In this document: in pieces, positions 4,637 to 42,382 of the stretch
Layout of the letters: the number at the start of each line of letters is the position of its first letter
How positions within the stretch are numbered: the first letter of the stretch is position 1
IMG/VR virus record: IMGVR_UViG_3300028920_002946
Span: 62,001-126,000 of that record
Reading direction: 5' to 3' (one strand)
DNA: 64,000 bases
DNA from: a virus
Position numbers and translations under genes: made by a program
Notes under the pieces: generated by a model
Databases searched by the model: none
Seen by the model: only the letters and a program-made list of their open reading frames with translations
What the model was told of the DNA's origin: nothing

Positions 4637-4639
4637 CCG

Positions 4640-5461: not shown

Positions 5462-5481
5462 CTCAGCCGCCTTTCAGCCTA

Positions 5482-5790
5482 TCAAGAGCCGGTTTCGCCA
5501 TAGTTGTACACCACGCGCAGCGTCAGCGGCCCGGTCACGCCGTGGGACGTGTCGTTCATGACATCCTTGACATCCGAGTTCGCCAGGTCGAGGGCGATGA
5601 GGCCCGTCCAGCCGTGGTGCGTGACGCCGAAGTCCACGCCGTTGCGCTGGGCCGGCCCGTCGGTGGGGTCGAGGGCGACGTCGTAGTTGCCGTCCGGCCC
5701 CGTGGTCGGTGGGTACTTCAGGACGAGGTAGTCGTTGCTGCCCGGGCCGACCTGCCCCGTGATGCTGTAGAATTCGACCTCGATCGCCAT
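5482..5790 (-). CDS. Small beta-rich tail-operon protein, unknown function
   Basis: The 102-residue product is beta-rich and has no recognised domain. Its 5' flank carries a TAATnnTCT-type motif, so it is probably the first gene of the tail transcript that continues through the PKD/lectin and spike genes. The ATG is preceded by GGGAGATAAC. A small virion protein is the most likely role. Confidence 0.6.
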   Translation of the reverse strand: MAIEVEFYSITGQVGPGSNDYLVLKYPPTTGPDGNYDVALDPTDGPAQRNGVDFGVTHHGWTGLIALDLANSDVKDVMNDTSHGVTGPLTLRVVYNYGETGS

Positions 5791-5828
5791 GTTATCTCCC
5801 TTTCAAGGGGCGCCATACATCATAGCGC

Positions 5829-5847
5829 GTCTATTAAGAGAGAATTA
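5829..5847 (-). promoter_or_regulatory. Candidate late promoter motif, site 2
   Basis: The minus strand reads TAATTCTCTCTTAAT, a full match to TAATnnTCTnnTnAT, 39 bases upstream of the gene starting at 5790 and just past the end of the endonuclease-methyltransferase gene. Confidence 0.6.
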
Positions 5848-5859
5848 TGGCATCCCCGG

Positions 5860-8115
5860 TTACTTCCGCCAAACGTAGAGGGGTTCCCCCTCCTTCTGCC
5901 TGCTGCGGGTGTTCCAATACCGGGTGGGCAGCCCCTCGAGGCGCGTGCGCGGAAGGGCGCAATGCAAATTGCGCGGGAGATTGAGGACCAGGTAGCCGCC
6001 CGGCTCCAAAGCCGATTCGGCATACTGGAAAATCAGCCCCATAAGATCCCTCCACTCCCCGCGGCCCATTTTCCTGCCGTACACCTCCAAATCGATGTAC
6101 GGGGGCGAGGTAAACACAAGATGGCACCTTTCGGGGGCGCCCTCCAATGAGAACCCGCCGTGAACGAGGTCGCACCGGGCCGCGGACACGAAATCCCTCA
6201 TGGCGCACAAACCCTTGTGGGTCTTGCCCCAAGGCTCGAACCCCACGTAGGACCTCCCGCTGGAAACGGCCCCCAGCATCCGGCCGCCCCATCCCGCGCA
6301 CGGGTCAACGACAACGCCCCCAGGGGGGCTGTAGCGCTCGACGACAGCCTTGGCCACCACGCTCGGAAACGCGGTGACGCCCCCGCTGTACTGTATCAAC
6401 GCGTTCCGGACGAATTTGGGAAGTATGCTTTTCTTGGACTTCAGGCAATACTGCAGGGTCGAATGAAGCGTGGAGTGCCCGGAGAAGGTGTCAGCCGGCG
6501 AAACCCCGCGATATGTGGCCTCGCTCATATGGGGCATGTAGTGCTTGAACAACTCATCACCCACGTTTGCATACCTCAAGACCGTATCGGACTTCCACAG
6601 GTATCTGCTCTGAAACGACTCTATCAACTTCCAGGATCGGCGAAGATACTCGTCCCCGTACCGGGGAGCCGGGAACCCCTTGGAATGATAGTAGGCAACC
6701 GCGTCGTGCAGCACCTCCGGATTCAAGTCAACCACGTACTTGTTTACAAAAGACAAATCCAGGTCGGTGTTGACGGCGGGCTTGAACAACTCCGGAAAAT
6801 AGGTTTCCCAATAGGAGCCCAAATAACCCTCATCGGACGACTTGTACCAAAAGCCGGGCAGTATATACTCACCGGGCACAGGCTCGATGCGCAACGTCCT
6901 TCTGGCGGCGTTCTTGAAGAAGAATCGATTCTCCAACGACCCTATAATGGACTTCCCGGCAGTGACTATGTCCCCTTGTGAACCGTCATCCATGAAATAG
7001 CACGCCCGGCCGAGGTCATTCAATTCGGCGGCGATCATCTCGAAATTCCTGGACCCATCCGGGTTCAGATACCTGCAGTATTCATCGAACCCCGGGCACG
7101 AGAGGCCTATCTGCTCCTCGGACACTATCACACAGTCCTCATAGGCCTGGCCCTTCCTCGGCACCGTAACCACATTGGACAGATGATCCCGCAGTATCTG
7201 CGCCTTCACGTAGAGGTAGCTCAGCTGCGCCAAGGAATGGTTGACCACAAAGCGGCCGTTGAAGTCCAAATGGCCGTCGCCCATCAGCCATCCAAGCAGC
7301 ATCTGATGCACATCCTCGTCGCGGGGGGGCGTCTCCATCGGGGGGCGCCCCACGAGAAGATCCCGTATGGCCTCCAAGTCGCCGCTCCAGGCGACCCTTC
7401 TTTCAGGCAGCGCTATGCCCGCCTGCGCGATCCTGCGATGAAGGACGGTTTCCGAAACCCCCCTCTCCCGGCTGAGGGCCGCAACGCTGCCGGCCTTTTT
7501 CAAGGACTCCTCAAACTCCTCGTCGCTTCCGGAGTTGGCGATGCCCCTGGCCCTGTGTATCCGGTGCCACCTCGGGCCATCGAGGCCGATGCTCTTGATG
7601 TGGATCAAGAGGTCATCATCGTTTACACGGACGCCGTGGATGCGCTCTATCTCACCCGCCATGTCGACAACGCGCATGTCGCGGGACAGCATATCCTCCA
7701 CATCGCTCTTCTTGACATGCCCCCTGAGCCATGTCCGGTTATCCAATGACTTGATGCCGAACCTCCGGAGCCACCACCCAGCCGTATGTCTCGTAAGGGC
7801 CAGCCCGAATTCCTCATTCAAGGCCAAGGCGACCTGTTCGTAGCCGAACTTCTTGGTCTCGCACAGATACCGGGCCCGGTCTTTCATCGCCGCCGTCCAC
7901 GACGACTCCCCGAGAACCTGGGAAGCGGCGGCGCGCTTGGGCTGGATAAGGCCCTTTTTCTTGAGGAGGGAGATCTGCCTCTTGACCCAACGAGGCGTCT
8001 GACCGAGACGCTCAGCCATCTCGGCATTCTTCATCGATGAGTAGTTTTCGACGATAAACTTGAGGTTCTCGGGGGTCTTGCGGTCGGCGGTGACGCCCCT
8101 CTTTGGCGTGCTCAT
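5860..8115 (-). CDS. HTH array - LAGLIDADG homing endonuclease - DNA methyltransferase fusion
   Basis: The 751-residue protein joins three functions. Residues 1-250 look like several winged or helix-turn-helix segments (for example MAERLGQTPRWVKRQISLL, 33-51). Residues 272-440 form a LAGLIDADG-type endonuclease with motifs LLGWLMGDG (273-281) and ACYFMDDGS (371-379). Residues 465-751 are a complete amino-methyltransferase with SAM motif VVDPCAGWGGR (602-612) and catalytic TSPPY (669-673). The ATG at 8115 was chosen because a host-type promoter ends six bases upstream; there is no Shine-Dalgarno. Distinct neighbouring operons suggest a mobile insertion. It shares architecture with the gene at 28352-30946. 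N4-cytosine or N6-adenine specificity cannot be told from the sequence. Confidence 0.85.
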   Translation of the reverse strand: MSTPKRGVTADRKTPENLKFIVENYSSMKNAEMAERLGQTPRWVKRQISLLKKKGLIQPKRAAASQVLGESSWTAAMKDRARYLCETKKFGYEQVALALNEEFGLALTRHTAGWWLRRFGIKSLDNRTWLRGHVKKSDVEDMLSRDMRVVDMAGEIERIHGVRVNDDDLLIHIKSIGLDGPRWHRIHRARGIANSGSDEEFEESLKKAGSVAALSRERGVSETVLHRRIAQAGIALPERRVAWSGDLEAIRDLLVGRPPMETPPRDEDVHQMLLGWLMGDGHLDFNGRFVVNHSLAQLSYLYVKAQILRDHLSNVVTVPRKGQAYEDCVIVSEEQIGLSCPGFDEYCRYLNPDGSRNFEMIAAELNDLGRACYFMDDGSQGDIVTAGKSIIGSLENRFFFKNAARRTLRIEPVPGEYILPGFWYKSSDEGYLGSYWETYFPELFKPAVNTDLDLSFVNKYVVDLNPEVLHDAVAYYHSKGFPAPRYGDEYLRRSWKLIESFQSRYLWKSDTVLRYANVGDELFKHYMPHMSEATYRGVSPADTFSGHSTLHSTLQYCLKSKKSILPKFVRNALIQYSGGVTAFPSVVAKAVVERYSPPGGVVVDPCAGWGGRMLGAVSSGRSYVGFEPWGKTHKGLCAMRDFVSAARCDLVHGGFSLEGAPERCHLVFTSPPYIDLEVYGRKMGRGEWRDLMGLIFQYAESALEPGGYLVLNLPRNLHCALPRTRLEGLPTRYWNTRSRQKEGEPLYVWRK

Positions 8116-8121
8116 GGCATA

Positions 8122-8150
8122 AATATACAGCGACCCAAGAGCCGTGTCAA
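8122..8150 (-). promoter_or_regulatory. Host-type sigma70-like promoter of first fusion gene
   Basis: On the minus strand TTGACA (8150-8145) is followed after exactly 17 bases by TATATT (8127-8122). The ATG at 8115 begins six bases past the -10 box, so the transcript would be leaderless or nearly so. Confidence 0.8.
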
Positions 8151-8171
8151 CTAGGGCCTTACATTTTTTCG

Positions 8172-9053
8172 TTACATGGAGCCAATCCAATTACGCCTCG
8201 ATTGAACTCCGGGTTTGGAATAAGGCCCCAAAGCCGAACTGATTCCTATACCGTAACGCGGCTGCTTCAGACCGCGGACGATTTTTATCGATTCCTTGGC
8301 CTGCTCCGCGGCCTCCTTGAACTCGGTCAGGAAGTTGTTCTTCATCGACTCGTACTTCGACGACTTCTCGAGATCCAGGGAGACCCCCGATATGCTGTAG
8401 CCGTATTCGTCGGCGATCCAGTTGAGGGCCACGGCCGCGCAGGCCATGGCGGCCGCGCGCATCAGCACGGTAGTTCTCCACCTGATGGGCATGTCCGTGA
8501 GGCTGACCCCCGTGACGGGCGGGTAGGAGTTGAACAGGTCCACCGCCATGAGGAGGTACTCGTAGAGCTCCTCGTCCTCCCATATGTACCCGAACACCTG
8601 CGTCTGCGCCTGCAGGAACTTCTCGTGGGACGGCGGCCGGAAGCGGTAGTTGCGGTCGGGGTTGTTGTCCCGCAGGATGATGCGCAGCCTGCGGACCATG
8701 AGGTCGGCCGTCTCGTCGCCGGTGACGCTGACCGTGACGCAGTCCTTCACCACGTTGAAGGCCTGGACGGCCTCCACGAGCGGAGAGGTCGGGGTCTCGC
8801 GGAAGTTCCAGCGCACGAGCCAGTCGCCGATGTTCGAGTCCAGGGGCAGCGTGGCATCCACGTAGTACTGCCCGGTGCCGGAGGTCGCCGGCACCCTGTC
8901 CGGCGCCCCTATGAGCACCTCCACGCCCGTGGTGTCGTCGAAGAGGGAGTACCGGATGTAGGCCGGGTCCGTCGGGACCCCGGAGCCGTTCCTTACGGTG
9001 ATTTTCAGGTCGTCCTGCGCGAGGGTCTGCCCCGGCTTGAAGGCAACTGACAT
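8172..9053 (-). CDS. Virion structural protein with Ig-like N-terminal domain
   Basis: The 293-residue protein has a beta-sandwich-like N-terminal domain (about 10-100) that parallels the upstream neighbour at 9110-9568. Both contain a YIRYSL/WIRYDV strand, a W-x-x-RW-x-F/Y strand and a closing hydrophobic strand. The C-terminal part is helical (about 120-260). A TAATnnTCT-type motif lies 41 bases upstream of the ATG. It is probably a tail, neck or fibre-attachment component; no specific family was recognised. Confidence 0.65.
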   Translation of the reverse strand: MSVAFKPGQTLAQDDLKITVRNGSGVPTDPAYIRYSLFDDTTGVEVLIGAPDRVPATSGTGQYYVDATLPLDSNIGDWLVRWNFRETPTSPLVEAVQAFNVVKDCVTVSVTGDETADLMVRRLRIILRDNNPDRNYRFRPPSHEKFLQAQTQVFGYIWEDEELYEYLLMAVDLFNSYPPVTGVSLTDMPIRWRTTVLMRAAAMACAAVALNWIADEYGYSISGVSLDLEKSSKYESMKNNFLTEFKEAAEQAKESIKIVRGLKQPRYGIGISSALGPYSKPGVQSRRNWIGSM

Positions 9054-15577: not shown

Positions 15578-16133
15578 TCAGAGACAGGTCCACATCACAG
15601 TCAATCTCGTCACCCCACACATCCCATCCGACAGACTTCTGCCTAGCGAACAGCTCTATTCGCGGAACATCGCCGCAAACATCAACAATCTTTCCCCGTA
15701 TGTCATCAGGCTTTTTAGAATGACCGCCTCTTTGATGCATAAACACATTAGGAATTCTACTCACGGTATCAACCGTAAACCTTCCTCGAGTACCAAACAG
15801 AATATGCTCAGTCGCACCCCTGAAATAAAATCCCATGCCATTGTTAATGACATTTCCTTGCTTATCAACCTTCACCCAGGTAAGAGTTGTTTTGTAACTG
15901 AATCCCCAAGCACTCATAACCTCAAAACCATACACTATCTTAGGATTCGTAACCCACAGAAAAAGGGCGCTGTTGTCGTCCGCTATCTCCGAAACAGGTA
16001 GCCGACAGATCTTCTCAACCGTCATCGTACCGTAATGGGCCTGCGGATTTCCCCCACGAGCGGCTTTTCTCCGCTTCTTCATCTTACCGTAATCCCAAGG
16101 GGGGTCGGCGTAAATAACGCTATACCTCTTCAC
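15573..16133 (-). CDS. MT-A70-family adenine methyltransferase
   Basis: The 186-residue protein is an MT-A70-type N6-adenine methyltransferase. It opens KRYSVIYADPPWDYG, with the catalytic DPPW at 10-13, and has the family's conserved later segments (ALFLWVTNP, GFEVMSAWGFSYKTTLTWVK, ATEHILFGTRG). The GTG start at 16133 overlaps the stop of the glycosyltransferase gene (GTGA), so translation is coupled. Its base composition is clearly more AT-rich than its neighbours, and exact AT-rich repeats flank its 3' end, suggesting recent acquisition. It probably modifies phage or host DNA; self-protection is inference. Confidence 0.88.
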   Translation of the reverse strand: MKRYSVIYADPPWDYGKMKKRRKAARGGNPQAHYGTMTVEKICRLPVSEIADDNSALFLWVTNPKIVYGFEVMSAWGFSYKTTLTWVKVDKQGNVINNGMGFYFRGATEHILFGTRGRFTVDTVSRIPNVFMHQRGGHSKKPDDIRGKIVDVCGDVPRIELFARQKSVGWDVWGDEIDCDVDLSLI

Positions 16134-19100: not shown

Positions 19101-20257
19101 CGGTTGCGCAGGAGGTTGCCGAGGGCGTCGAGATCCCCCTGCTCGATCGTCGACCCGCCGGTGCCCTTGCGGGTCTCCTCCTCGATGGCCGCCTTCAGCG
19201 CGCGGGCCTCCCTGCTCTCCGGCTTCTTCGATATCGCGTGGTCGACATGCTTGAGCGCCTCGCCCAAGCTCCTCCTCTTGAGCATGATCGTCGCCAGCTT
19301 CATCGAGGGGATGTACCCGTAATAGTCGACCAGCTGGGACATGCCCCCGGAGAGGGTCTTGGTGAGGGCCTCCCTGTAGTACGTGACGGCCTCGTCCTCG
19401 CGCCCCTCCTCCTCGGCTATGAGGCCCAGGACGACATGGTTCTCGGCGTATATGCCGTTGAACCGTATCCCGAGCATCGCGTAGTTGCGGGCCGCCTCCT
19501 TGTTGCCCTGCTTCATGTAGTAGTTGGCGAGCCGGATGCAGCCGACGGTGAGGTTGTCCACGAAGCCCTCGCCCCTCGCCACGAACTTCTCGAGGACGGG
19601 GACGGCCTCCTCCCACTTGCCGATGTCCGCCAGCTCCTTGCCGTAGTAGAAGGCGATCCTGGCGGACGCGGCGCCCGTGTCGTACTCCTGCTTGAGCAAG
19701 GTCAGGTTGCGCTTGGGGTCGTACGGCCGGTTGCGGTAGTGGTCGATCTTGATGTCGAGGCGGCTGATCCGCATCGACCCGTCCATGTTGAGGTACTCGT
19801 GGATGGGATCGTGCCAGCGTATCTTGGGCGTGTTGCGGACGAGCCGCTCCCTCGGGAGAATGAGGACGGGTCGGTCCTTGTCGTCGTGCGAGTAGACGTA
19901 GTCCATGAGGACCACGTCGATCTCCGGCAGCTTCTCGACGAGGGCGTTGATCTTGTCGTGTTCGGACTCCTTGACCACGTCGTCGGAGTCCAGCCAGAGG
20001 ATGTGCGCCGCCTCGCTCTGCTCGAACGAGTAGTTGCGGGCCTTCGAGAAGTCGTCGCACCACTCGAAGAAGGCGACCTTCGTGGCGTACTTCTCGGCGA
20101 CCTTCACGACCTCCTCGTCGCGCATCCTGGTGGCGTGCGTGATGACCACCTCGTCGAAGTTGATTCCCTGCACGCTCTTGAGGCACCGCTCGAGGATGTC
20201 GGCCTCGCCGGATCCCACTATCAGGTTCAGTCCCAGCTTCTTCGTGTGCTCCGCCAT
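16130..20257 (-). CDS. Giant multidomain glycosyltransferase
   Basis: The 1375-residue protein strings together four sugar-transfer units. Residues 8-170 are a GT-A (GT2-like) domain with WLDSDD (88-93). Residues 195-360 are TPR-like helical repeats. Residues 405-710 are a GT-B/GT4-like domain (CPQRVDVQPGKSS and FGMPVIASP near 620-648). Residues 738-985 are a second GT2-like domain (IPNYNNLEYL, MNSDVVV, GCEDLDLCMR). Residues 1005-1375 are a second GT4-like domain (WFDETFCIGAVE near the C-terminus). It could glycosylate virion proteins, host surface polymers or modified DNA bases; no acceptor can be read. The following MT-A70 gene is translationally coupled. Confidence 0.88.
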   Translation of the reverse strand: MAEHTKKLGLNLIVGSGEADILERCLKSVQGINFDEVVITHATRMRDEEVVKVAEKYATKVAFFEWCDDFSKARNYSFEQSEAAHILWLDSDDVVKESEHDKINALVEKLPEIDVVLMDYVYSHDDKDRPVLILPRERLVRNTPKIRWHDPIHEYLNMDGSMRISRLDIKIDHYRNRPYDPKRNLTLLKQEYDTGAASARIAFYYGKELADIGKWEEAVPVLEKFVARGEGFVDNLTVGCIRLANYYMKQGNKEAARNYAMLGIRFNGIYAENHVVLGLIAEEEGREDEAVTYYREALTKTLSGGMSQLVDYYGYIPSMKLATIMLKRRSLGEALKHVDHAISKKPESREARALKAAIEEETRKGTGGSTIEQGDLDALGNLLRNRDLMVEVLANNGLHADLRLRKHRKTSVVWLLPNDDATNPSTRLRRLIIDEKLRGKRVESRRVVGYQNMSAEDVEEAVGTANVVVFTSFGPAELDLMRAMKAKNRRICFDHCEGIFGFPLEDECMHEADAILCCSTKLAEMTRERGFLHTVVLKDSVEEREPRKPHQYKEIKGERPKAVFMGMGGNSFLVTDHLRDTIESAGYDLVVISEWDNADIKWDPDTWPDDLAACDVALCPQRVDVQPGKSSVKATTAMAFGMPVIASPLQAYKEIIAHGENGFIAETKEEWGEALRKLGDVGERRRVGKAAKRSVAPYRLENNVQNYINLFDSLVNGTIRLEHAEAPASVEKARDVVDLVIPNYNNLEYLKLCLSSIRLNTVHPFHIVVSDAGSGPEVWEYLRTLKGITVLGEEGARKTFSEACNAGVRSSRSKFFVIMNSDVVVSKGWLGNMVRHMETVHRLASCGVLSNCDRSWLHGAPGKPTYPMRLERAGVELHPGMKLEEITPHIDELYEFMEASNRRHRDIFQPQEWVAAYATIFARSAINEVGLFDTRFKNGCEDLDLCMRLGKAGFACGQSIGSFVFHFGGVSRGAYQDEDRESYDAEDRENHVMLKRKWERKRIAIWTGPAWEPWNRRRVDEGMAGSETWAAYLARAFVRKGYEATVYNDLLADSKDDVALDPVVEGGVDYGAVRYVDHTKMMEDIQYLYIDYFISSRSCEPMRQSLHSGRNYVMVHDIWLNPDPNYDVMAWKVQGYAYLSDWHKEFLCGHHKQLPPEKMFLTANGVVQDLYNDVDDSAKENCSVYSSSPDRGLYQLLQMMPEIRKAVPDFKLKVAYGFYNWESAVKRRNDQRGMAFIQKIKAAMEQPGVEYLDRIDKATLAEHQKRANVWLYPCWFDETFCIGAVENGLSHNAILSTDRAGLKTTVGPSGILIPGDGLPMDADYPKEYTDRFVEESIKLLTDANYRREWADKAQAKMKEYSWEKIADGWIEKFKG

Positions 20258-23994: not shown

Positions 23995-25236
23995 TCACGC
24001 CGCGGATCCCCGCAGCGGTATCTCCTCCACGTCCTTGTCCGAGTTCTTGAAGACCACCTTGTCCACCTTGAACGTCCTGCCCCTGAAGGAGTCGTCGCCC
24101 AGCACCCTGTCGCCCCTGCCCTTCTTCACGTAGGCGATGGTGATGTGCGGGACGTACGTCGGGTAGGAGTTCTCGTTCGGGACCGCCTTCTCTATGGCGT
24201 AGTGCAGGTCCTGCAGCTCCGGGGACTCGGCGTCTATCTTCACCACGTCCTGCTTGTCCGAGTCCTTGAAGACGGTCACCAGGCCGAGCCTGACCTCGAA
24301 CGGCCCCACCTTCCCGACCTCCGACCGCAGCGTGTCCGTGACCCTCCTGGGCTTCAGCCCGTAAAGCAGGGTGATGTGCATCTCGTCCTCCCTGCCGGCC
24401 GTCCCGTCGTCGTCCTCCTTCAAGTCGGCGTCGGGGACGTTCTTTTTGCCCCAGGCGATGATCTGGTCGCCCAGATCCTTCGGGAGGTCCACCTGCGTGG
24501 TGGAGTGGTCGTACTCCCCCTCGCTGTTCGCCTTCTTGTTGCGCGGGAGCGCGGGCTTTCTCGGCCTCTTGCCGTCGCGCACGTCGCGCAGGAACTTGAA
24601 CAGCGCGTCAAGGCTGTCGAACTCCTCGTAGGAGCCGCCGGAGCCTATGTCGTCCAGGAACCTCTTCTCCCTCTCCGAACCCTTGCCCCCGCGGTAGAAC
24701 AGCACGTGGTCGACGTTCAGGACGCAGGCGAGCTCGTCGTATATGTTCTCCTCCGGCTCCCAGTCCTCGTCCGTGGGGTCGATGAAGGCGAAGTCGCCCC
24801 CGAACTCCTCGACGACGGCCCTGCGCCATTTGTCGCCGTCCGAACACCGGCCGCCCAGGAAGACGGACGGCTTGTCTGACTCGATGGCCTTGAACATCCT
24901 CCCGCGGAGATCCGACGCGAACTTGGCCACGACCGACTCGGGGGAGGCACCCTCGTGCATGGGCACGTACTCCCCGCCGACGTACCTGAACTTGGGGTTC
25001 AAGGACTCCATCCTATCCCAGGGATAGGCTTCCAAGACACCCTTGAAGTCCGGCCCCAGGTCGTTGATCGAGATGACGCGCGCCGGATCCCCGCGCATCG
25101 GGGGGAGCCTGACGCTCCTGCCGTCCCTCAAATCCTGGATGACCCGTTTGACATCGCCCCCGGGCAGACACTCGAAACAGAGATCCACGGTTTTCCCGCC
25201 GTGGGAGGCCCATGGGGCGGCGGTGCGGTCAGTCAT
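23995..25236 (-). CDS. Deoxyribosyltransferase-like plus 2H phosphoesterase fusion
   Basis: The 413-residue protein ends in a 2H phosphoesterase domain: two HxT motifs, HITLLYG (H287, T289) and PHITIAYV (H364, T366). This superfamily includes 2'-5' RNA ligase-like cyclic phosphodiesterases and phage Acb1, which destroys CBASS cyclic-nucleotide signals. Residues about 122-225 (SVFLGGRCSDGDKWRR, then FIDPTDEDW) resemble a nucleoside 2-deoxyribosyltransferase-like Rossmann domain. An N-terminal segment is unassigned. The start is the ATG after GGGGAGGGCTTG. A weak host-like promoter lies upstream. A counter-defence or nucleotide-metabolism role is inferred. Confidence 0.75.
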   Translation of the reverse strand: MTDRTAAPWASHGGKTVDLCFECLPGGDVKRVIQDLRDGRSVRLPPMRGDPARVISINDLGPDFKGVLEAYPWDRMESLNPKFRYVGGEYVPMHEGASPESVVAKFASDLRGRMFKAIESDKPSVFLGGRCSDGDKWRRAVVEEFGGDFAFIDPTDEDWEPEENIYDELACVLNVDHVLFYRGGKGSEREKRFLDDIGSGGSYEEFDSLDALFKFLRDVRDGKRPRKPALPRNKKANSEGEYDHSTTQVDLPKDLGDQIIAWGKKNVPDADLKEDDDGTAGREDEMHITLLYGLKPRRVTDTLRSEVGKVGPFEVRLGLVTVFKDSDKQDVVKIDAESPELQDLHYAIEKAVPNENSYPTYVPHITIAYVKKGRGDRVLGDDSFRGRTFKVDKVVFKNSDKDVEEIPLRGSAA

Positions 25237-25274
25237 CAAGCCCTCCCCTCTCCGGGGACTCCCGCTTTGTAGAC

Positions 25275-27260: not shown

Positions 27261-27980
27261 TCATGCGGGAAAGTATCCCCCGATCCTGTCGTCGAAATAC
27301 TTGACCTTCCGCGGCGGCAGAAACGACTTCAGCCCGCCCACGTAGTAGGAGAAGGAGTCCGCCCAGTCGTCCCACGGGTTGCGGCGGGCGTAGAACCTCG
27401 TGTACCCGGCGTCCGGGTCGTACCACCACTCGCCCGTCATCTCGGGGGCGCCTCGCTCCCTTATGCGGAGCCTCCTCAGCCCCGGCGCGGGCTTCTCGGA
27501 CCATTTCGAAAGCCCCGTCCAATCCGGCCGCTTGCTCAGTTCCAGCCCGCCGGCCCCCCGCGCCTCGTCCCAGCCGTGCCCCAGCTCGTGGAACAGCGTC
27601 TGGTCGAACTTGTCGAGGCTCGCGCCCGCGTCGGGATCCACCTCGAAGAGGCCGTCGTCCAGCAGCCTGCTGTTCAACACCAGGGCGCCGTTGCTGTAGA
27701 CACCGTGGTTGGGGAAGTACTCGCGCGACTCGCCCATGTCCTCGAAGCCGATCGACGTGACGCCGCAGTCCCGCACGAGCGTTGGCGGCAGCCTCGATAT
27801 GCTCTCCCCCAAATGGCGCAGGCAATCAATGCCGGGGTGGCCGGTAACGGTGATGCCGTACCTGCCCTTGAGCATGGACAGTATCTCGCCGCGGTCGACG
27901 GAGTCGTCGAGGTCCGCCGCGACGCGCCTCAGCTTCCTGGCGATTTTGACGGTAAGCAAATGTCCCTCCACAGACACCAT
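27261..27980 (-). CDS. Zinc metallopeptidase (HExxH)
   Basis: The 239-residue protein carries a zincin motif, FHELGHGWDE (H131, E132, H135), followed at about 203-213 by WDDWADSFSYY, whose acidic residues could supply the third zinc ligand. The N-terminus (VKIARKLRRVAADLDD) is helical. The chosen ATG at 27980 lacks a good ribosome-binding site; a TTG at 27959 is preceded by GGAGGG and is an alternative. It might act on virion proteins, the host envelope or host proteins after infection. Confidence 0.75.
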   Translation of the reverse strand: MVSVEGHLLTVKIARKLRRVAADLDDSVDRGEILSMLKGRYGITVTGHPGIDCLRHLGESISRLPPTLVRDCGVTSIGFEDMGESREYFPNHGVYSNGALVLNSRLLDDGLFEVDPDAGASLDKFDQTLFHELGHGWDEARGAGGLELSKRPDWTGLSKWSEKPAPGLRRLRIRERGAPEMTGEWWYDPDAGYTRFYARRNPWDDWADSFSYYVGGLKSFLPPRKVKYFDDRIGGYFPA

Positions 27981-28048: not shown

Positions 28049-28276
28049 TCAGTACCCCTGTTGCTGGCTTCTGCCGTACGGGTAGAAAAACGTCGTGCCT
28101 GCGCCCTGCAGGTTGCGCTGGTGCTGGAAGTCTATGTCGCGGACAAGATTCCCCGAAACGTTGATGACGGCGTCGCCGTCGGCGCCGCCCATGTCGGAGT
28201 CGCGGAGGTTGTAGAGGCCCCCGGTCCCGCCCGTGCTCTGGTTCGCGCCCTCCTGCCCGACCCTTCTGTCTGACAT
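28049..28276 (-). CDS. 75-residue Gly/Gln-rich protein
   Basis: The short product is rich in Gly, Asn and Gln (ANQSTGGTGG, ending YGRSQQQGY) and probably disordered. The ATG at 28276 has AGGAG seven bases upstream. A TAATnnTCT-type motif lies 36 bases upstream. It may be a small virion protein. The function is unknown. Confidence 0.6.
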   Translation of the reverse strand: MSDRRVGQEGANQSTGGTGGLYNLRDSDMGGADGDAVINVSGNLVRDIDFQHQRNLQGAGTTFFYPYGRSQQQGY

Positions 28277-28311
28277 GTCGCCGACTCCTATGCTGTGTGG
28301 CACATAGGATC

Positions 28312-28351: not shown

Positions 28352-30946
28352 CTACCGGAACATACCCAGGAACGAGTCCCTCAAGCCCTTGTCCCGGGCG
28401 GCCGCGAAGAGACTCGCCTTGAGGTGCGCGTACGGTTTGCCCGCGTTGAAGAGGCGCTTCATCCTCGATGCAGGATTGCCTGTCGCACTTTCATAGGCGC
28501 CGAACCCCAACGCATCGCCCGCCAAATCGCAAGCATCAAAATACTCCCGTATCCTGTCGACGGGCTTCTTCACGACCCGCCCCGGCTTAAACCCGCACGA
28601 TTCAACGAACTTGTTCCATGAGCCGAATCTGCGCTCCAACACGTGTGCGGGCACGCCGTTGATGCCGTGCCCCTCATAATTGCCCCGTGCAAGCCCGATG
28701 GACGGCGCATTTTCCTTGAACCAACAAACCGCGCCGTCCAAGTCATACCTTTCACGGAAGACACGACGTCCCCTTCTTCTCCTCACCCCTCGAGGCGGGC
28801 GCTGTGTGTGCCTGTCAGGGGGCTCCCAAGTGATAGGGGGGGCCTCGTCAACCGAACAGAAGGACAGAATATCCTCATGGGCCCCGCCATTGAAGTTTCT
28901 GACAGGAACGGCAAACTTCTCAAACAGATGAAACCCCACAGACTTGCAGAGTCGTATGGTGTCCTCTATCAAAGGCGCGCAGGAGCGCTCCGAAAGACAC
29001 ACGGAGAACACCCCGCCGGGCGCAAGCGACCCTATGCAGTTGCGGACGGTGGGATCCCAATAACCCTCTATCCACCGCCGATAGTCGGGGAACTTCGCCA
29101 CACTCTGGGTGCTCTCGTCGCTGTACCTTTCGTAATCGAAGTACGGGGGGCTCGAGAAGGCGACGCTAAAGGCCCCGGGTTTGGGGCCGAAACCCTCCGA
29201 TCCGGATTTGACCACATCAAACCTCCCCCCGACCACGGGACGAAGAAACGACCCGAAGCGCTCCAAGTTGGAGGCCGTCTCCGAACAGGGTTCGACGCAC
29301 ACATAGTCCATGCCCAGAGACATGGCCCCGAGCATGCGGGACCCGTACCCGCCGCTGTAGTCCAGCACCCGCCCGTTGGCGCCATACCTGTAGAACACAA
29401 ACCTCGCCACGGAGGGCTTGAAATTGCTCACGCATAGCCGCATGGCCTTGAATCCCCTGCGCATCGAAGCCTCGCCCACGCGGTCCGCATGCTCAAGGCG
29501 GTTTCTGACATAGCCCCGCATGAAGGACTCGTCCCGCCACAAATCAACAGGCGAGGCGTGGCCCTTGCGGCTCGCGGAGTACATGTTCGGAAAAAAGCCC
29601 TCGCACAGTATCATGCCCGCCGAACTATGAGCCAAAACGCCCCCCTCGTCCCTGATAATCGATGAACGCTTGAAAGACGAAGCCAGATACTCGGCCCTCT
29701 TCGCGCTGAGGGACATATAGGGAAACGGTTTGCCCCAATATCTTCTGAACAGGGTGTCCTCCATCGCCGACTTCACGGGATCCGGGGACAGCCGATAGAA
29801 TTTCGGGCGCGGGTCGCCGACGAGCGCGGACACCCGGGCGACCTCCTCCGCGGACAGGAAATCCTCGGGTATCTTGTAGTACATGTCGGGGGTGGCGACC
29901 CCAAGCACGATGCGGAAAAAATCGCGGTAGTGGCTTTTCGACACTGTCACGTTATGGCCCGAAAGGGAAAACCCCCATCCGTATCTGTCCTCCAACCAAC
30001 CGACGAAGCGCTCAATCTGCGAGCGGTCGCCGCAGAAGTTGGCTATGGACATCTGCCTCCTCTCGTCGTCGTAACTGCCGTCGTCCAGGAACCAATAGCC
30101 CAAAATGCGGTCATCCCAATTCTCCTCGATGAACTTAAGAGGGACTGCCTTGCCCGGCACACCATCGGTGTAGAAGGCTTCTCGAAACTCCGCGAAAGCG
30201 GGATGCGTGACCGTATTAATTCTGAACTCATTTCTATCGTGATCCTTCATAATTCTATTTGAGTAGGGCTCAAGGGCAACCATCTTGCTTCTTAAGTAGT
30301 CTTTTTGTTTTGCCGAGTGAGTTTCATAATATCTCGGTGACCTGTCGATGCCGCCGTCGCCGAGGAGGCCCCCTATGATGAGGAAACGCTGCTCTTTGGT
30401 AAGAGCGGGATATTGACCCTGTCGCCAATCCTCCTTTGGCCCTATGCCCCTCTGACGTAGAACAGGAAGCCAAACGGTCTTCGACAACCCCACCTTCTCC
30501 GAAAAAGCGTCGTTCGTCATGGAGTGGTACATGGATCGCAATTCATCGGTCGACATGGAAACCAGACGTTCGGACGCGTTCCGCGTCTTTGAAAATTTGT
30601 CCGTAGCGAGCAGACCTATCCTTTTTCGTCGGTATGCCACACCCGGGCCTGTCAAGCCGAAACGACGCCCAATTTCCTCGTCGGAAAGTCCCTGCTCGCA
30701 AAATCCCTTGAGGACATCATCCGTCAATAGCTTTCTCAGCCCCTTTTTCTTGCCCGTGTACGCAACACGGACATCAGAGCGACCAACGCTCTTGGGGTTT
30801 GTGGGAATGCCGTATTTCCTCAAGAGCTTAAAAACGGCGTCCTCAGTCACTCCGACCAACGAACCTATCTCCCGGCACCGAAGACCGTGTGTGGAGTACA
30901 GCTGCCTAAGACTCTCTTCATCGAGTTTGTCAAACGAATAGTTCAT
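28352..30946 (-). CDS. HTH - LAGLIDADG homing endonuclease - DNA methyltransferase fusion (second copy)
   Basis: The 864-residue protein has the same order of parts as the gene at 5860-8115. Residues 1-170 hold HTH-like segments (REIGSLVGVTEDAVFKLLRK, 25-44). Residues 185-345 are the LAGLIDADG endonuclease (IIGGLLGDGGID 190-201; ILGYWFLDDGSYDD 281-294). Residues 395-700 are the methyltransferase, with SAM motif VLDYSGGYGSRMLG (527-540) and SSPPY (598-602). A C-terminal extension (about 735-790) ends FGSWNKFVESCGF, like homing-endonuclease-associated repeats. The ATG at 30946 lies seven bases past a TATATT box. The proteins are diverged, so this is not a recent duplication. Confidence 0.85.
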   Translation of the reverse strand: MNYSFDKLDEESLRQLYSTHGLRCREIGSLVGVTEDAVFKLLRKYGIPTNPKSVGRSDVRVAYTGKKKGLRKLLTDDVLKGFCEQGLSDEEIGRRFGLTGPGVAYRRKRIGLLATDKFSKTRNASERLVSMSTDELRSMYHSMTNDAFSEKVGLSKTVWLPVLRQRGIGPKEDWRQGQYPALTKEQRFLIIGGLLGDGGIDRSPRYYETHSAKQKDYLRSKMVALEPYSNRIMKDHDRNEFRINTVTHPAFAEFREAFYTDGVPGKAVPLKFIEENWDDRILGYWFLDDGSYDDERRQMSIANFCGDRSQIERFVGWLEDRYGWGFSLSGHNVTVSKSHYRDFFRIVLGVATPDMYYKIPEDFLSAEEVARVSALVGDPRPKFYRLSPDPVKSAMEDTLFRRYWGKPFPYMSLSAKRAEYLASSFKRSSIIRDEGGVLAHSSAGMILCEGFFPNMYSASRKGHASPVDLWRDESFMRGYVRNRLEHADRVGEASMRRGFKAMRLCVSNFKPSVARFVFYRYGANGRVLDYSGGYGSRMLGAMSLGMDYVCVEPCSETASNLERFGSFLRPVVGGRFDVVKSGSEGFGPKPGAFSVAFSSPPYFDYERYSDESTQSVAKFPDYRRWIEGYWDPTVRNCIGSLAPGGVFSVCLSERSCAPLIEDTIRLCKSVGFHLFEKFAVPVRNFNGGAHEDILSFCSVDEAPPITWEPPDRHTQRPPRGVRRRRGRRVFRERYDLDGAVCWFKENAPSIGLARGNYEGHGINGVPAHVLERRFGSWNKFVESCGFKPGRVVKKPVDRIREYFDACDLAGDALGFGAYESATGNPASRMKRLFNAGKPYAHLKASLFAAARDKGLRDSFLGMFR

Positions 30947-30953
30947 GATAGGT

Positions 30954-30982
30954 AATATAGCATTTGGAGATGCTACTGTCAA
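30954..30982 (-). promoter_or_regulatory. Host-type sigma70-like promoter of second fusion gene
   Basis: On the minus strand TTGACA (30982-30977), 17 bases, TATATT (30959-30954), then seven bases to the ATG at 30946. The spacing and leaderless layout mirror the first fusion gene's promoter. Confidence 0.8.
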
Positions 30983-31041: not shown

Positions 31042-31072
31042 AAAAAAGAGTCGGGGACGAATCCCCGACTCT
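31042..31072 (-). terminator. Strong intrinsic terminator after the capsid gene
   Basis: On the minus strand an 11-bp perfect stem (AGAGTCGGGGA paired with TCCCCGACTCT) is closed by a TTCG tetraloop and followed by six T residues counting the stem end. It lies 22 bases after the stop of the capsid gene and ends the head operon before the second fusion gene. Confidence 0.92.
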
Positions 31073-31094
31073 CTAATCTGCAACTCGACTGCTA

Positions 31095-31976
31095 CTAGCG
31101 AGCAATCTTCACGCGGCACAGCGCCAGCGGGTTGTAGCAACCAATCCCAAGGTGTTCGAAAATGCTGAACCCTATCCTTCTTGCCCGGGGATCGTCTGCG
31201 CTCAGAACTGTGAGTTCTGTACGGACGGGAATACGCCCGAAGAACTCCGGCTCCGCGCACACGTAGGCGTACCCACGCGCGACCTTACGAGAGACGATGA
31301 CCTGCGCGCCCCAGAGGGTGGCGAGCATGCCGCTCTTCAGCAGCGTGGCCTGGCTCTCGAGGTCGAGGACATCGCGGCCCCACTTCCTCAGGTCGGCGAA
31401 GTCCAGCGCGTTCATGAACACGCGGGCGACCCTGAGGTCGTGCGTCTCGATGCGCGCGTAGGCGTCGATGAGGTTGGAGGGGGTGAGCGGCGCCACGGCG
31501 TTGACCTGGGCGTTGGTGTAGCTGCTGTCCAGGTTGTCGAAACCGTTCGCAGCGACGGCGTCCATGACGTCGAAGATGCGTCCGTCCTCAGCGGCCTGGA
31601 TCTGCGCCTTGCCGAGGTCCTGGGCGCGCTCGATGATGTCGAAGCGGCGCTCCTTGACCTGGGTCAGCGGGATCTCAGGGTTCGAGGCGAGCTCGAAGAG
31701 CGGGAAGGTCACCCTGCGGCCCTTGACCACGGCCAGGATGTTCTCGCCCTCTTCGCCGACCACGAATGCGGTGACGTTGGGGTCCTTGTCGTAGATGGGC
31801 AGTGCGCCATCCGGGAGCTGCTCGACCAGGAATGCCTTCCTGGCGACCGACGTGTAGTCTCTCCGCAGACGGAGAGGCTGGATCATCGACGCAGCGATCT
31901 TCGCACGGCCGGAGGCCGTCTTCAGATACTCGTTGATGATTTGCTGCTTGACCTCGTTGCTGATAGTGTCAGGCAT
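31095..31976 (-). CDS. Major capsid protein, HK97-fold-like
   Basis: The 293-residue protein has the layout of an HK97-type capsid subunit. An N-terminal helical arm is followed by a region with LVEQLPDGALPIYDKD and VTFPLFELAS. A long helix comes next (about 105-140), then an A-domain-like part (YARIETHDLRVARVFMN). The C-terminal strands include an APVIVSRKV-like turn (WGAQVIVSRK). Strong AGGAGG upstream of the ATG, a structured leader and a powerful terminator downstream all fit very high expression. It follows the decoration-like and scaffold-like genes. Confidence 0.8.
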   Translation of the reverse strand: MPDTISNEVKQQIINEYLKTASGRAKIAASMIQPLRLRRDYTSVARKAFLVEQLPDGALPIYDKDPNVTAFVVGEEGENILAVVKGRRVTFPLFELASNPEIPLTQVKERRFDIIERAQDLGKAQIQAAEDGRIFDVMDAVAANGFDNLDSSYTNAQVNAVAPLTPSNLIDAYARIETHDLRVARVFMNALDFADLRKWGRDVLDLESQATLLKSGMLATLWGAQVIVSRKVARGYAYVCAEPEFFGRIPVRTELTVLSADDPRARRIGFSIFEHLGIGCYNPLALCRVKIAR

Positions 31977-33990: not shown

Positions 33991-36885
33991 CTATCCGCCG
34001 GTCGACGGATTCCGCACCTTGTTCAGGATCCCCGCCCACTTCAGGAGCTTCCTCGACTCCGATTTGGATGGCCTCCTGCCCGTTTCCACTATGATTTCGG
34101 TGAAGAACCGCCGCGCGTCGCCGTCGGACGCCAGGCGCACCTTGCTGAGCGCCCTGACCGCGTCGGGCCCGACAGGCTCCCTTGAGAGCTTTCCGTCCAC
34201 GTACCACAGGATTCCGAGCACGTCGTCCCTCGAGTACCCGTAGCGGGCCATGCGCCCCCAGTCCCGCAGGTTGGACATGATGAGCATGGCGTTCGCGAGC
34301 CTCTCGCCTATCTCGCCCGACGCCTCCCTGAGCATCCTGGGGAACGAGGCCTCCTTGACGAGGTCGTCGTTCGAGGCGAGGTCGGACTCCGCCGGCCTCT
34401 GGTCGGGCCTCGTGGCCGACTGGGCGCCGCCCTCCATGAGGTCGTGCCTTATCTCGTTGAGGACCGTGCGCTTGAGCATGTCCTTCACTTCCTTGGCGGT
34501 CGCGTCCTGCGGGGGCTCCTCGACCTGCGGCTGCGGGGGCTGGTCGGGCGCCCCTCCCGGGGCCGCTCCGCCCAGTCCGGCGGCGTCCCCGCCGGGGGCC
34601 GCGCCCTCCGCGGGCGGCGGCGCGTCCTCGCCGAGCGGCTTCTCCGCGTCGGCGGGGGCCTCCGGGAAGCGCGTGTCGTCCGTCGGCGCGGGGGGCGCGT
34701 CGGCGGGCGGCGCCTCGGGCGCCGGGGCCGGGGCCGGATCCTGCGCCTCGATCTCGGTGACTATCTCGTTGGCCGCCTGCTCGGCGGCGGCCTTCACGTA
34801 CATGCCGTCCGTCTTCACGAACTCCGGCACGGCGAATGCCTTGGTGAACTTCTCGGACAGGTCGAAGTCCGGCTCCACGAGGTTGCGGAGCACGGCCCCG
34901 CCGAAGGCGGGCTTGCGGACCCAGCTCGCGTCGATGAACCTGCAGCTCTCGGGGTCCTCCACGCGCCCGCACAGCTCCGCGACGATGCGCCTGACACCGT
35001 TGGGGTCGTAGAAGAAGTTCCGCTTGAAGAAGCGCACGTGCTTGCAGGCCTTCGACTCGTCCTCGGCGATCTGCCCGCACTGGCTGCACTGCGAGTATTT
35101 TATCAGGCAGCCCATGCTGGTGGCGTTGTACTCGCCTGAGGTGATCTTGTTGATCAGATCCTCGTGCTTGCGGTTCGTGGCGATGAGGATGTCGACGTAG
35201 AGCGTAGTGAGGTCCTTGCCGTCCTTGTCCTTCACGAAGGGCACCTCACGCAAAGCGACGTCTATGACCTTGCCCTTAGCGAGCTCGGGTATCTGCACGT
35301 GTTCACAGTTATGCACCGCCACACCCTCGGCGATGTACGAATTATCGCCCTCGACCTCGATGTTATGCACGGTGAAGGAACCTTCGACAGGCCCCACTCC
35401 TTCGATTTTGGACAGAAGCCACGACCCGTCATCATTGGAGAATTTGTACGTGAACCTGTTGTCCCTCTTGCCGAACATCAACGAGGAAGAATCACCCGCG
35501 GCGGCATCCAGGGCCTTGGAATCGCGACAGGAGTACCTAATCATGTACCCGGGACGGGATTTCTTTCCTGTCTCCGGATCCGTATACACATCATACCCAT
35601 CGACAACATTGCACTCAGCGTATCGACCCAAGACACCCGTTTCCTTGTAGGTCGGCAACAGCCCCAAACGCCATGAAATCCACATGAATTGCTGCACAAG
35701 CTGGCGCGACTTCAACTCCATGATGTACCCGCGAGACTTGAGCACCCCGCACCCATCACCGGAAATGCAGGATCTCAAAATCCTCGTTTGCAAACCCTTC
35801 GGAAGCCACATGGCCTCCTCAGGTAGCTTTTTGGCCCACGCATACTCGCCGCACCATTTCTTGAAGAAATCAGCCACGACCTTATTGCTAACACACAACG
35901 TGTAACTTCCGCTGTGCGTCTCACGCACGCGAGGCGAACACCCGGTCCTGAAGCCCTCCCCGAACTCTTTTTCCAACAGATCCTTCAGCATCACGGCGAC
36001 GTCGTACTCGTCATTTCCAAGGGCAAAGCAAACCCCGGACTCCTCGTCGGAGGAGTTGTTCGTCCGCATGTAGAAACCCTCGGCGAGGAACCAACCTATT
36101 AGAGTCGCGCGATTCTCGTTGACCTCCTCGTTCGGCACCTCAAGATCTGAGACAGGATGCGTCAGAAAATCGCGATCAGGGTCAATGCAGCCCGCGTCCT
36201 TCCAAGATCCGGATATCCCACATGGAAAGCTTTCCCCAGCGGCTTTGTGCACGCCCACCGAAAAACCAAGCCACTTATCGAGGCGGCAGAAGTCCTTGTC
36301 CTTGTCAAAGCGGTTCGGCCGGCCTGTCTTGGGACACGTCTTCCGTGCGCTGTACACCCAAAATGGGTGGTTAGCAGTAACGAAAAGGCTCCTCGACATA
36401 ATCGCGCGCGACTTGATTTCCACCAAATCATTTGCCTCATGCACAAATGTTCTCAACACGGCTGCTGGCTTTCCAAGCCTGTTGATCACCTTGTCACCGA
36501 CTTGTATCTCATCTATTGGCTTGTACGTTCCATCGGACATTAGCACGCGCGTACCAGCCGTGAAACAGTAGTTGTTCGCGCCCAAGAAGGACTTGTAGCA
36601 GGCGCGGAGCATGTCGCGCTCCCACGAGTCCCCGTTGTTGTTCACGAAGACGGAGTACTCGGGCTTGATCAGGTAGTTGGACTTGGGATCCTCGGGGTCG
36701 GCGCGGTCGGTGTCGACGGAGGCGATGATGGTCACGTGGCTGAGCAGCCACTGCGACGGGTCATAGGTGGCGATGACATTCTTGGCCACCTTGATCCTTC
36801 CCGCCGGGACCACCTTGTCGACCCACTTGCCGGGGTCGACCATCGCCGTCGTGACGGCAGCGTGTCCGTATTTCAACATCGCCAT
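33991..36885 (-). CDS. Prohead protease precursor interrupted by an intein
   Basis: The 964-residue precursor splices to about 544 residues. The N-extein (1-106) and first C-extein part resemble phage prohead core proteases. EHVQIPELAKGKVIDV supplies the likely catalytic His just after the intein, and NATSMGC (about 592-598) the likely Ser. A CSQCG...CKH cluster follows, and a Pro/Ala-rich linker (about 720-780) leads to a helical C-terminal domain, perhaps scaffold-like. It lies between the neck-like gene and the scaffold-like gene. Activity would require protein splicing. Confidence 0.82.
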   Translation of the reverse strand: MAMLKYGHAAVTTAMVDPGKWVDKVVPAGRIKVAKNVIATYDPSQWLLSHVTIIASVDTDRADPEDPKSNYLIKPEYSVFVNNNGDSWERDMLRACYKSFLGANNYCFTAGTRVLMSDGTYKPIDEIQVGDKVINRLGKPAAVLRTFVHEANDLVEIKSRAIMSRSLFVTANHPFWVYSARKTCPKTGRPNRFDKDKDFCRLDKWLGFSVGVHKAAGESFPCGISGSWKDAGCIDPDRDFLTHPVSDLEVPNEEVNENRATLIGWFLAEGFYMRTNNSSDEESGVCFALGNDEYDVAVMLKDLLEKEFGEGFRTGCSPRVRETHSGSYTLCVSNKVVADFFKKWCGEYAWAKKLPEEAMWLPKGLQTRILRSCISGDGCGVLKSRGYIMELKSRQLVQQFMWISWRLGLLPTYKETGVLGRYAECNVVDGYDVYTDPETGKKSRPGYMIRYSCRDSKALDAAAGDSSSLMFGKRDNRFTYKFSNDDGSWLLSKIEGVGPVEGSFTVHNIEVEGDNSYIAEGVAVHNCEHVQIPELAKGKVIDVALREVPFVKDKDGKDLTTLYVDILIATNRKHEDLINKITSGEYNATSMGCLIKYSQCSQCGQIAEDESKACKHVRFFKRNFFYDPNGVRRIVAELCGRVEDPESCRFIDASWVRKPAFGGAVLRNLVEPDFDLSEKFTKAFAVPEFVKTDGMYVKAAAEQAANEIVTEIEAQDPAPAPAPEAPPADAPPAPTDDTRFPEAPADAEKPLGEDAPPPAEGAAPGGDAAGLGGAAPGGAPDQPPQPQVEEPPQDATAKEVKDMLKRTVLNEIRHDLMEGGAQSATRPDQRPAESDLASNDDLVKEASFPRMLREASGEIGERLANAMLIMSNLRDWGRMARYGYSRDDVLGILWYVDGKLSREPVGPDAVRALSKVRLASDGDARRFFTEIIVETGRRPSKSESRKLLKWAGILNKVRNPSTGG
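35308..36567 (-). mobile_element. LAGLIDADG intein in the prohead protease
   Basis: Residues 107-526 of the precursor (420 aa) form a canonical intein. It starts CFTAGTRVLMSDG, with a block-B TANHPF near intein residue 64. It has two endonuclease motifs (ATLIGWFLAEG near 154, LRSCISGDG near 264) and ends VAVHN followed by Cys. All splicing residues (Cys1, block-B His, penultimate His, terminal Asn, +1 Cys) are present, so splicing and homing both look intact. Base composition is more AT-rich than the exteins. Confidence 0.93.
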
Positions 36886-42353: not shown

Positions 42354-42382
42354 TTGACGGCGGCGTTGTAAAAACGTATATT
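42354..42382 (+). promoter_or_regulatory. Host-type sigma70-like promoter of plus-strand gene
   Basis: TTGACG (42354-42359), 17 bases, TATATT (42377-42382). It drives the plus-strand gene whose ATG is at 42399, with a GGAGGG ribosome-binding site between. Confidence 0.75.

Follow-up and report, generated by a model that had tools for sequence, protein, structure and literature searches.

The LAGLIDADG_2 homing endonucleases of the I-SceI / I-WcaI group are encoded in introns and are not known to have partner domains of the kind described here; in Type IIG restriction-modification enzymes the nuclease is a PD-(D/E)XK domain at the N-terminus. When a free-standing homing gene has its target in a conserved neighbour, the sparing of its own genome is usually credited to sequence differences or to the insertion itself. 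Here we describe two genes from a stretch of 64,000 nucleotides (nt; the window), bases 62001-126000 of the 182,677-base virus record IMGVR_UViG_3300028920_002946, each of which joins a helix-turn-helix (HTH) arm, a LAGLIDADG nuclease and a methyltransferase (MTase) in one chain. The initial annotation had singled out one of them, here copy 2, as a diverged second copy of the other, copy 1 (Table 1). Our reading, to which we give a probability of roughly 0.52, is that both are site-specific homing elements and that the fused modification enzyme would shield the target of each from its own nuclease.

Copy 2 lies in an open reading frame (ORF) on the minus strand (28352-30982) that is uninterrupted by a stop and has its first TTG codon at 30982. 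Its start codon is likely the ATG at 30946, which matches the end coordinate in the initial annotation; the TTG at 30982 forms the -35 box of a promoter-like site. Counted from this ATG, the LAGLIDADG and MTase motifs stand at the places previously given for them (G196 D197; D288 D289 G290; D529 G533; S599 P600 P601). Pfam LAGLIDADG_2 matched copy 2 with an E of 1.1e-13 (51.9 bits against a curated cut-off of 25) and copy 1 with 26.1 bits, over the same cut-off; the Pfam HTH matches in the arm of copy 2 were weak. The added C-terminal repeat that had been noticed in copy 2 was recovered as an HNH_repeat match at residues 780-799 (numbered from the TTG), which lies under its cut-off. A profile of the nuclease region matches I-SceI (4.3e-27), and the family profile aligns both acidic positions with I-SceI D44 and D145, the catalytic residues of that enzyme. 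The strongest hits of the MTase-region profile were to a protein annotated as a putative modification methylase, at 2.8e-11, and to a DNA cytosine-N4 methyltransferase, at 6.9e-10. An AlphaFold model of copy 2 (predicted local distance difference test, pLDDT, 87.8; predicted template modelling score, pTM, 0.62) reached a VIA-align Z of 21.1 against I-SceI and of 17.5 against the tRNA MTase Trm11. Motif I and an SPPY motif IV are present in a class I fold, and N6_N4_Mtase exceeded its cut-off in the relatives L017, L045, L061, L008 and L018, being not reported for copy 2. That the C-proximal enzyme is an amino-MTase is well supported, and DNA is its likely substrate. In copy 2, as in stand-alone MTases, the MTase profile aligns along one continuous stretch; the MTase is thus uninterrupted by the endonuclease.

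With copy 2 as query, tblastn finds copy 1 at 25% identity (E 1.5e-17), the next-best place in the window having an E of 0.54, and the whole record holds exactly two LAGLIDADG_2 matches, copy 1 and copy 2. Domain order is the same in both. Local identity is 24% in the nuclease and 31% in the MTase, as expected of the second, diverged copy of low similarity that had been described, and no similarity was found between the two N-terminal arms. Recent duplication, the alternative raised at that time, is ruled out by these identities of 24-31% and the different arms, and orthologues of each copy occur at its own site elsewhere. Frameshift or chimeric assembly is likewise ruled out by intact orthologues on separate contigs. 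An intron or intein origin of copy 2 was also rejected, there being no Hint domain in copy 2, where the same scan found one in gene 33991-36885, and no Rfam match in the window. We take each copy to be a mobile gene that is free-standing, outside any intron or intein, and specific for its site. The earlier placement of both between operons of different genes is broadly correct, copy 2 standing between the hairpin of the capsid gene and the next gene, and copy 1 between two neighbours. A hairpin scan of the stretch returned three such sites against 3.9 expected, that behind the capsid gene having the longest stem. The copy 1 ORF (5860-8190, minus strand) also extends upstream to a TTG, at 8190, and both copies carry a promoter-like site ahead of the ATG (Table 1), a pattern with five other sites in the window at two mismatches or fewer. 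Among 33 distinct fusions, 21 have such a site near the start with at most two mismatches, in a set that carried no shuffle control. We infer that each copy is an intergenic cassette that carries a sigma70-like promoter of its own. The copies have a third-position G+C of 0.705 and 0.779, compared with 0.857-0.965 in seven other genes measured and 0.815 in the intein-bearing gene 33991-36885. PADLOC, run on seven proteins, returned homing endonuclease matches, weak Type II MTase or Mad2 matches and one CARF match for copy 1 (0.0036), and a known defence system was rejected.

Relatives were collected by IMG/VR scans seeded with each copy, the capsid protein, the MTase alignment and gene 8172, the upstream neighbour of copy 1, yielding 2 to 80 loci each. 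From 96 relatives in the capsid scan, at least 581 in the MTase scan and 106 in the gene-8172 scan, the best 80 were kept in each case, those of the MTase scan being checked against copy 2. Local profiles identified 59 LAGLIDADG-MTase ORFs, which reduced to 33 distinct proteins after removal of near-copies, so that the earlier view of a real element family instead of a one-off fusion is borne out. Both acidic LAGLIDADG motifs and MTase motif I are kept in all 33. Two truncated proteins (L044_5680 and L071_2462) were excluded from the motif IV count, the MTase tree and the Mantel test; among the 31 fusions uncut within the MTase, motif IV reads SPP[YF] in 30 and CPPY in one (L049). The copy-1 type accounts for four of the 33 (the window, L101, L102, L107); the other 29 lie behind a capsid gene, two of them second in tandem (L026_10868, L044_5680), a figure which alone proves little because most of the 29 came from the capsid-seeded scan. 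The ratio of nonsynonymous to synonymous substitution (dN/dS) was tried on six pairs, mostly saturated or near-identical; in L035/L038, the only pair with dS near 1 in all parts, it is 0.058 for the nuclease and 0.070 for the MTase. In L045 a single protein (3594-6881) was seen to carry a LAGLIDADG and two MTase domains from different clades.

Trees of the two domains were built separately, as the initial annotation had proposed, and the LAGLIDADG and MTase trees have the same clades, A (with copy 2), B, C, D, E, F (with copy 1) and G. The nearest neighbour is the same in nuclease and MTase for 26 of 31 proteins, and distances in the two domains are correlated (Mantel rho 0.595, n=31, none of 2000 permutations as high). 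As the clades are shared, the nuclease-MTase pair travels as a unit. At greater depth, repeated fusion or loss is likely, because in the MTase tree stand-alone MTases fall between the fused clades; four changes are needed, at least two being forced by starred branches. On the LAGLIDADG tree the fused label requires seven changes, at least five of them forced, a number inflated by the 'LAG only' rows L019, L036, L040_9915 and L046_6849, which are cut by contig ends. Such interspersed stand-alone MTases, with at least two forced changes, are what would be seen if homing endonuclease genes had several times landed by accident in frame ahead of an MTase gene, which they carried as a passenger; we consider this very improbable, since the same nuclease-then-MTase order with similar spacing runs across 33 distinct proteins, both domains are under constraint, and other nucleases and another modifier have been combined likewise at the same sites. 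The N-terminal arm behaves differently from the body. Between clade B and copy 2 the arm is 39-51% identical over 112-140 residues, against 26-31% in nuclease and MTase (one nuclease pair gave no match), whereas within clade A arms are 37-47% and bodies 44-51% identical. This suggests that the arm has a history of its own and has been exchanged between bodies.

The MTase-seeded loci were selected independently of the capsid gene. In 78 of them a capsid gene lies just upstream of 13 of the 14 LAGLIDADG_2-MTase fusions, at 2 to 522 nt from the nearest fusion, and the fourteenth (L165) begins at a contig end. Only one of the other 64 loci has a capsid gene upstream, namely L159, which is a LAGLIDADG_3-MTase fusion classed as not fused since the local profile missed its LAGLIDADG_3 domain; the 64 also include L118, where no MTase ORF was found, and L142 and L143 with short MTase fragments. 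The association has a Fisher p of 9e-13 on the raw table. Six of the 13 are contigs of the capsid set (L111, L112, L113, L115, L120, L128) and L148 is a near-copy of L007, so the independent additions number six, and in all six (L114, L135, L154, L168, L181, L185) the capsid gene is upstream. None of the stand-alone MTases of this sample has a capsid gene inside the fetched flank.

We also read the capsid site from the other side, in the 58 loci with at least 1500 nt downstream of the capsid gene; 22 of the 80 were shorter and were excluded, near-copy contigs were kept, and a single locus may count in several classes. LAGLIDADG-MTase fusions occupy 22 of these loci, LAGLIDADG-ParB_N fusions 3, LAGLIDADG-Mom fusions 2, DUF7487-type-MTase fusions 3, another MTase form 2, LAGLIDADG alone 4 and ROS/DUF7487-type genes 17, and 17 have none of these. 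The last class holds other genes, such as an RRXRR protein (L066) and RecQ-like helicases (L073, L092). Because the local ROS and VSR profiles overlap, these two labels cannot be treated as independent; the PARB label on L039 probably reflects an HTH match. A TnpB-like gene (OrfB_IS605/Cas12f1-like, L023 8104-9219) and the RRXRR gene (L066 2129-3328) were seen directly behind the capsid gene. In L023/L024 the TnpB-like gene lies between the capsid gene and LAGLIDADG-Mom (by Pfam match for L023). The site behind the capsid gene is a general landing spot. The capsid gene itself is interrupted near codon 31 in the relatives L033, L036, L038 and L047, the L036 insert (2954-3261) being a group I intron (RF00028, 61.3 bits) and that of L033 holding split LAGLIDADG ORFs.

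Empty sites were found for both copies. L015, the sister of the window, has a capsid protein 90% identical to that of the window and no cassette, the order being capsid gene, hairpin, a short stretch and the orthologue of gene 27261 (Table 1). L033 and L027, whose capsid DNA is 87% identical over 298 bases, differ by about 2.8 kb extra behind the capsid gene in L033, after which the sequence is colinear with L027. A 59-row capsid tree requires 12 changes of the LAGLIDADG-MTase label, no fewer than seven of them forced by starred branches; from this tree, whose bootstrap had not settled, identical rows were removed, and it includes the window, L007 and seven MTase-seeded loci and retains some loci with less than 1500 nt downstream where a gene was seen. 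Copy 1 occurs at 2 of the 80 loci around gene 8172 (L195, L198) and also in L005 and L006, and L199 provides its empty site. Both copies lie at orthologous places in three records (G000, G001, G003). This orthologous placement, taken with the empty sites and the patchy distribution, indicates that the elements are maintained within lineages and are also gained and lost. For the predicted homing step the comparative signs are the empty beside the filled sites and the patchy distribution.

The same observations bear on two other explanations. The fixed position behind the capsid gene and the HTH arms could belong to a domesticated regulator with a vestigial nuclease, whose binding and methylation close to the capsid gene would set the timing of capsid expression; retention of the nuclease motifs in 33 of 33 proteins, absence from close relatives such as L015 and the existence of a second site elsewhere make this scarcely credible. 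The cassette might instead be a phage-borne single-chain restriction-modification enzyme that destroys co-infecting phages, homing being a by-product. Its target adjoins an essential gene and it would have its own promoter, and interference by a homing endonuclease in co-infection has a precedent in the intron endonuclease gp210 of phage PhiPA3, which is reported to be used in phage competition (PMC11620839). The strict locus association, empty sites and patchy distribution fit homing, however, and we hold use as a weapon to be improbable as the primary explanation; it is compatible with homing.

Pairs of a nuclease, or putative nuclease, and a modifier also occur in other combinations. LAGLIDADG_2 is fused to a phage-Mu-like Mom in L023/L024 (Pfam Mom 7.6e-8 in L023, over cut-off), a separate Mom gene lies near LAGLIDADG_2 in L205, L206 and L223 (by Pfam for L205 and L223), and L207 has a Mom gene with no LAGLIDADG found in the available stretch. 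The same MTase is preceded by a LAGLIDADG_3 domain in L159, by a Vsr nuclease in LR756508 (L010; no capsid gene in the available stretch) and by a DUF7487-type domain in L052, L061 and L080, at the capsid site. In LR756508 the nuclease part exceeds the Vsr cut-off and matches the mobile intron protein 3r3p at 9.6e-7, and the N-terminus also has zinc fingers and NUMOD3 (under cut-off). In L014 (Prevotella phage Lak-B2) the same MTase was seen behind another, unassigned N-terminus. DUF7487-Mom fusions occur at 6 of the 80 loci around gene 8172 (L190, L191, L192, L194, L197, L254), on the strand opposite to gene 8172 and within about 100 bases of its end except in L254 (1.6 kb). A model of the L192 protein (pLDDT 73.3, pTM 0.46) is most similar to phage Mu Mom (Foldseek 8.3e-9; VIA-align, covering the Mom part only, Z 17.7 with the next row at 13.3). 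A Mom search of the window's own record gave no match, nor did the control of that search. When all ORFs of at least 60 amino acids (aa) in the fetched loci were searched by phmmer, the copy-1 arm matched only copy-1 orthologues and the C-termini of five of the six DUF7487-Mom proteins, L192 being the exception, with 51-53% identity over 55 residues (L190, L194) or 29% over 172 (L254). The copy-2 arm matched only capsid-site proteins, including the C-terminus of the L072 ROS/DUF7487-type protein, and short fragments there. Clades D and G at the capsid site gave no match to the copy-2 arm, so more than one arm may serve that site. That different cut-and-mark proteins of one site have a DNA-binding arm in common is our best ground for supposing that the three parts (arm, nuclease and modifier) work on one and the same DNA.

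The sharing of arms also counts against cargo or mutualism, in which the MTase or Mom would shield the whole phage genome from host restriction, the domains need not share a site and the nuclease would gain its upkeep. Mom has a known role in anti-restriction, both domains of the fusions are under purifying selection, and most members of the MTase family in the sample are phage genes that stand alone (60 of 78 MTase-seeded loci), all of which agree with such cargo. It is, however, fusion and not mere neighbourhood that recurs, with more than one partner fold, and the absence of stand-alone MTases beside the capsid gene does not favour it either. On balance we regard this explanation as rather unlikely.

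In the self-protecting homing scheme that we prefer, the fusion gene would be transcribed from its own promoter, and the HTH arm, joined in copy 2 by the C-terminal arm, would bind the target at or near the insertion site, as the association of arms with sites suggests; the target of copy 2 would be the 3' region of the capsid gene, that of copy 1 the 8172/5482 junction. The I-SceI-like domain would cut the target in a co-infecting, element-free genome, repair of which would copy the cassette in, and the fused MTase would mark the same target, leaving element-bearing genomes and fresh copies uncut. In sister elements the place of the MTase is taken by a Mom domain. Such a protein would be a single-chain restriction-modification enzyme in the service of homing. 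L017, which is 40% identical to L048 over residues 147-595 and has intact MTase motifs and both acidic nuclease motifs lost, fits a resistant allele. We propose more tentatively, the odds running slightly against it, a general class of self-immune homing elements composed of a site-binding arm, a nuclease of varying type (LAGLIDADG_2, LAGLIDADG_3, Vsr, DUF7487 type) and a DNA modifier that varies likewise (SPPY MTase, Mom); a single protein would then cut the empty site and also mark the filled genome.

Several observations weigh against self-protection or its generality. The nearest folds of the MTase are RNA MTases (Trm11), though sequence profiles favour DNA MTases, and the commonness of the stand-alone MTase noted above indicates that it is useful without the nuclease. 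In L004 the nuclease is intact and the MTase stops short of motif I, which shows that a nuclease can exist without the MTase and argues against a strict requirement. ROS/DUF7487-type genes, which have no known modifier, stand at 17 of the 58 capsid loci, some next to a fused gene; protection is therefore not always needed. The LAGLIDADG_2-ParB_N fusions (3 of 58, two of them near-copies) are no obvious fit for DNA marking; two such proteins with LAGLIDADG_2, HTH and ParB_N were seen at L016 7890-9650 and L029 7972-9630. In the comparison of empty with filled sites the capsid 3' end is conserved, and the intergenic flanks are too diverged to place the cleavage site. Finally, profiles of DUF7487 and of the L052/L061/L080 N-termini match each other (hhalign probability 98.7%) and no PDB nuclease, and those N-termini match the Vsr part of LR756508 with a probability of 3%. 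The label 'Vsr-like' was set aside for both groups on these grounds, and we name them DUF7487-type putative nucleases, nuclease activity being suggested by a conserved xGxYWH motif and the company they keep.

Table 1. Features of the two fusion genes and their surroundings (window coordinates)
Feature	Position	Strand	Remarks
Copy 2, HTH-LAGLIDADG-MTase-repeat fusion gene, 864 aa	28352..30946	-	intact ORF; Pfam, PHROG, PDB and fold matches
Promoter-like site TTGACA-N17-TATATT, copy 2	30954..30982	-	11/12 consensus bases; ends 8 bases before ATG 30946
N-terminal HTH arm, copy 2, about residues 1-165, proposed targeting module	30452..30946	-	short-helix pattern in model; weak HTH matches; module common to capsid-site elements
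LAGLIDADG_2 nuclease domain, copy 2, both acidic motifs intact	29861..30403	-	
SPPY amino-methyltransferase domain, copy 2	28928..29752	-	
C-terminal arm, copy 2	28355..28801	-	arm also in clades A and B
HNH_repeat (homing-endonuclease-associated) motif within the copy 2 C-terminal arm	28586-28645	-	E 4.9e-4, under curated cut-off
Major capsid gene, upstream neighbour of copy 2 and its relatives	31095..31976	-	Pfam Phage_capsid 1.3e-5
Terminator-like hairpin, 3' of capsid gene, ahead of copy 2 promoter	31045..31074	-	
Next gene past the copy 2 cassette	27261..27980	-	orthologue 481 nt behind capsid gene in empty L015
Small ORF between copy 2 and gene 27261	28049..28303	-	DNA resembling part of the ORF present in empty L015 site
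Copy 1, HTH array-LAGLIDADG-MTase fusion gene, 751 aa, likely start ATG 8115	5860..8115	-	
Promoter-like site TTGACA-N17-TATATT, copy 1	8122..8150	-	directly ahead of ATG 8115
N-terminal arm, copy 1, residues 1-255	7351..8115	-	first part recurs as C-terminus of same-site DUF7487-Mom proteins in relatives
LAGLIDADG domain, copy 1	6829..7320	-	
MTase domain, copy 1	5926..6702	-	
Gene upstream of copy 1, marker of second insertion site	8172..9053	-	
Gene downstream of copy 1	5482..5790	-	orthologue 29 nt behind the 8172 orthologue in empty L199

Elsewhere in the window, putative terminase-like and portal-like genes on the minus strand were named by reading of the sequence. Two sites much like the promoters of copies 1 and 2 lie at 42354 and 43170 on the plus strand, opposite to the structural genes. 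The gene at 33991-36885 (minus strand), in the structural region, holds an intein-like insert with a Hint domain (Hom_end_hint 6.4e-9) and has a relative without the insert in L004; stretches like this insert occur in orthologues of 827-2209 and 16130-20257 (L005) and of 827-2209 (L006). The protein of 23995-25239 (minus strand) has a 2'-5' RNA ligase/Acb1-like (anti-CBASS) domain and a nucleoside deoxyribosyltransferase-like part, the latter under cut-off.

The question of self-sparing would find a direct and testable answer in a fused modification enzyme, which would also connect homing endonucleases to restriction-modification systems. If the proposed general class is real, free-standing homing genes could target conserved essential genes which their insertion leaves intact. 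Same-site swaps, of Mom for the MTase and of other partners for LAGLIDADG_2, make the idea testable with natural variants, among them L017 and L004.

Set beside the known systems, copy 2 has the fold and both acidic positions of the I-SceI / I-WcaI group but, unlike those enzymes, belongs to a free-standing gene and is fused to HTH arms and an MTase. Type IIG/IIL restriction-modification enzymes such as MmeI cut and methylate in one chain, as here; unlike them, the present proteins use a LAGLIDADG nuclease and sit at a strict genomic locus in a mobile phage cassette. A fused Eco29kI endonuclease-methylase (PMC3039593), presented in the title of its report as a model hybrid made from the two partners of a restriction-modification system, likewise has nuclease and methylase in one polypeptide and is not a homing element. 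The mobile intron protein 3r3p, which we take to be of the EDxHD/Vsr-like class, matches the nuclease part of LR756508, and its solved chain (105 residues) has no modification domain. In the open-licence literature covered by titles, abstract openings and passages, we found no description of a homing endonuclease with its own modification domain of this kind. GIY-YIG nucleases joined to an NPPY MTase are reported from Lactobacillales (PMC1564403), and homing endonucleases paired with antitoxin genes from large phages (PMC12619734). The PhiPA3 enzyme gp210 is an intron-encoded HNH enzyme, and the word 'methyl' does not occur in the main text of that report (PMC11620839). Homing endonuclease and phage methylase also meet in one gene in mycobacteriophages, where a lone LAGLIDADG and the ShiLan HNH (a hidden HNH gene) are reported as insertions in a DNA methylase gene (PMC11855218); there the endonuclease is inserted in the methylase gene, whereas here it stands ahead of a complete MTase and the pair lies outside any other MTase gene.

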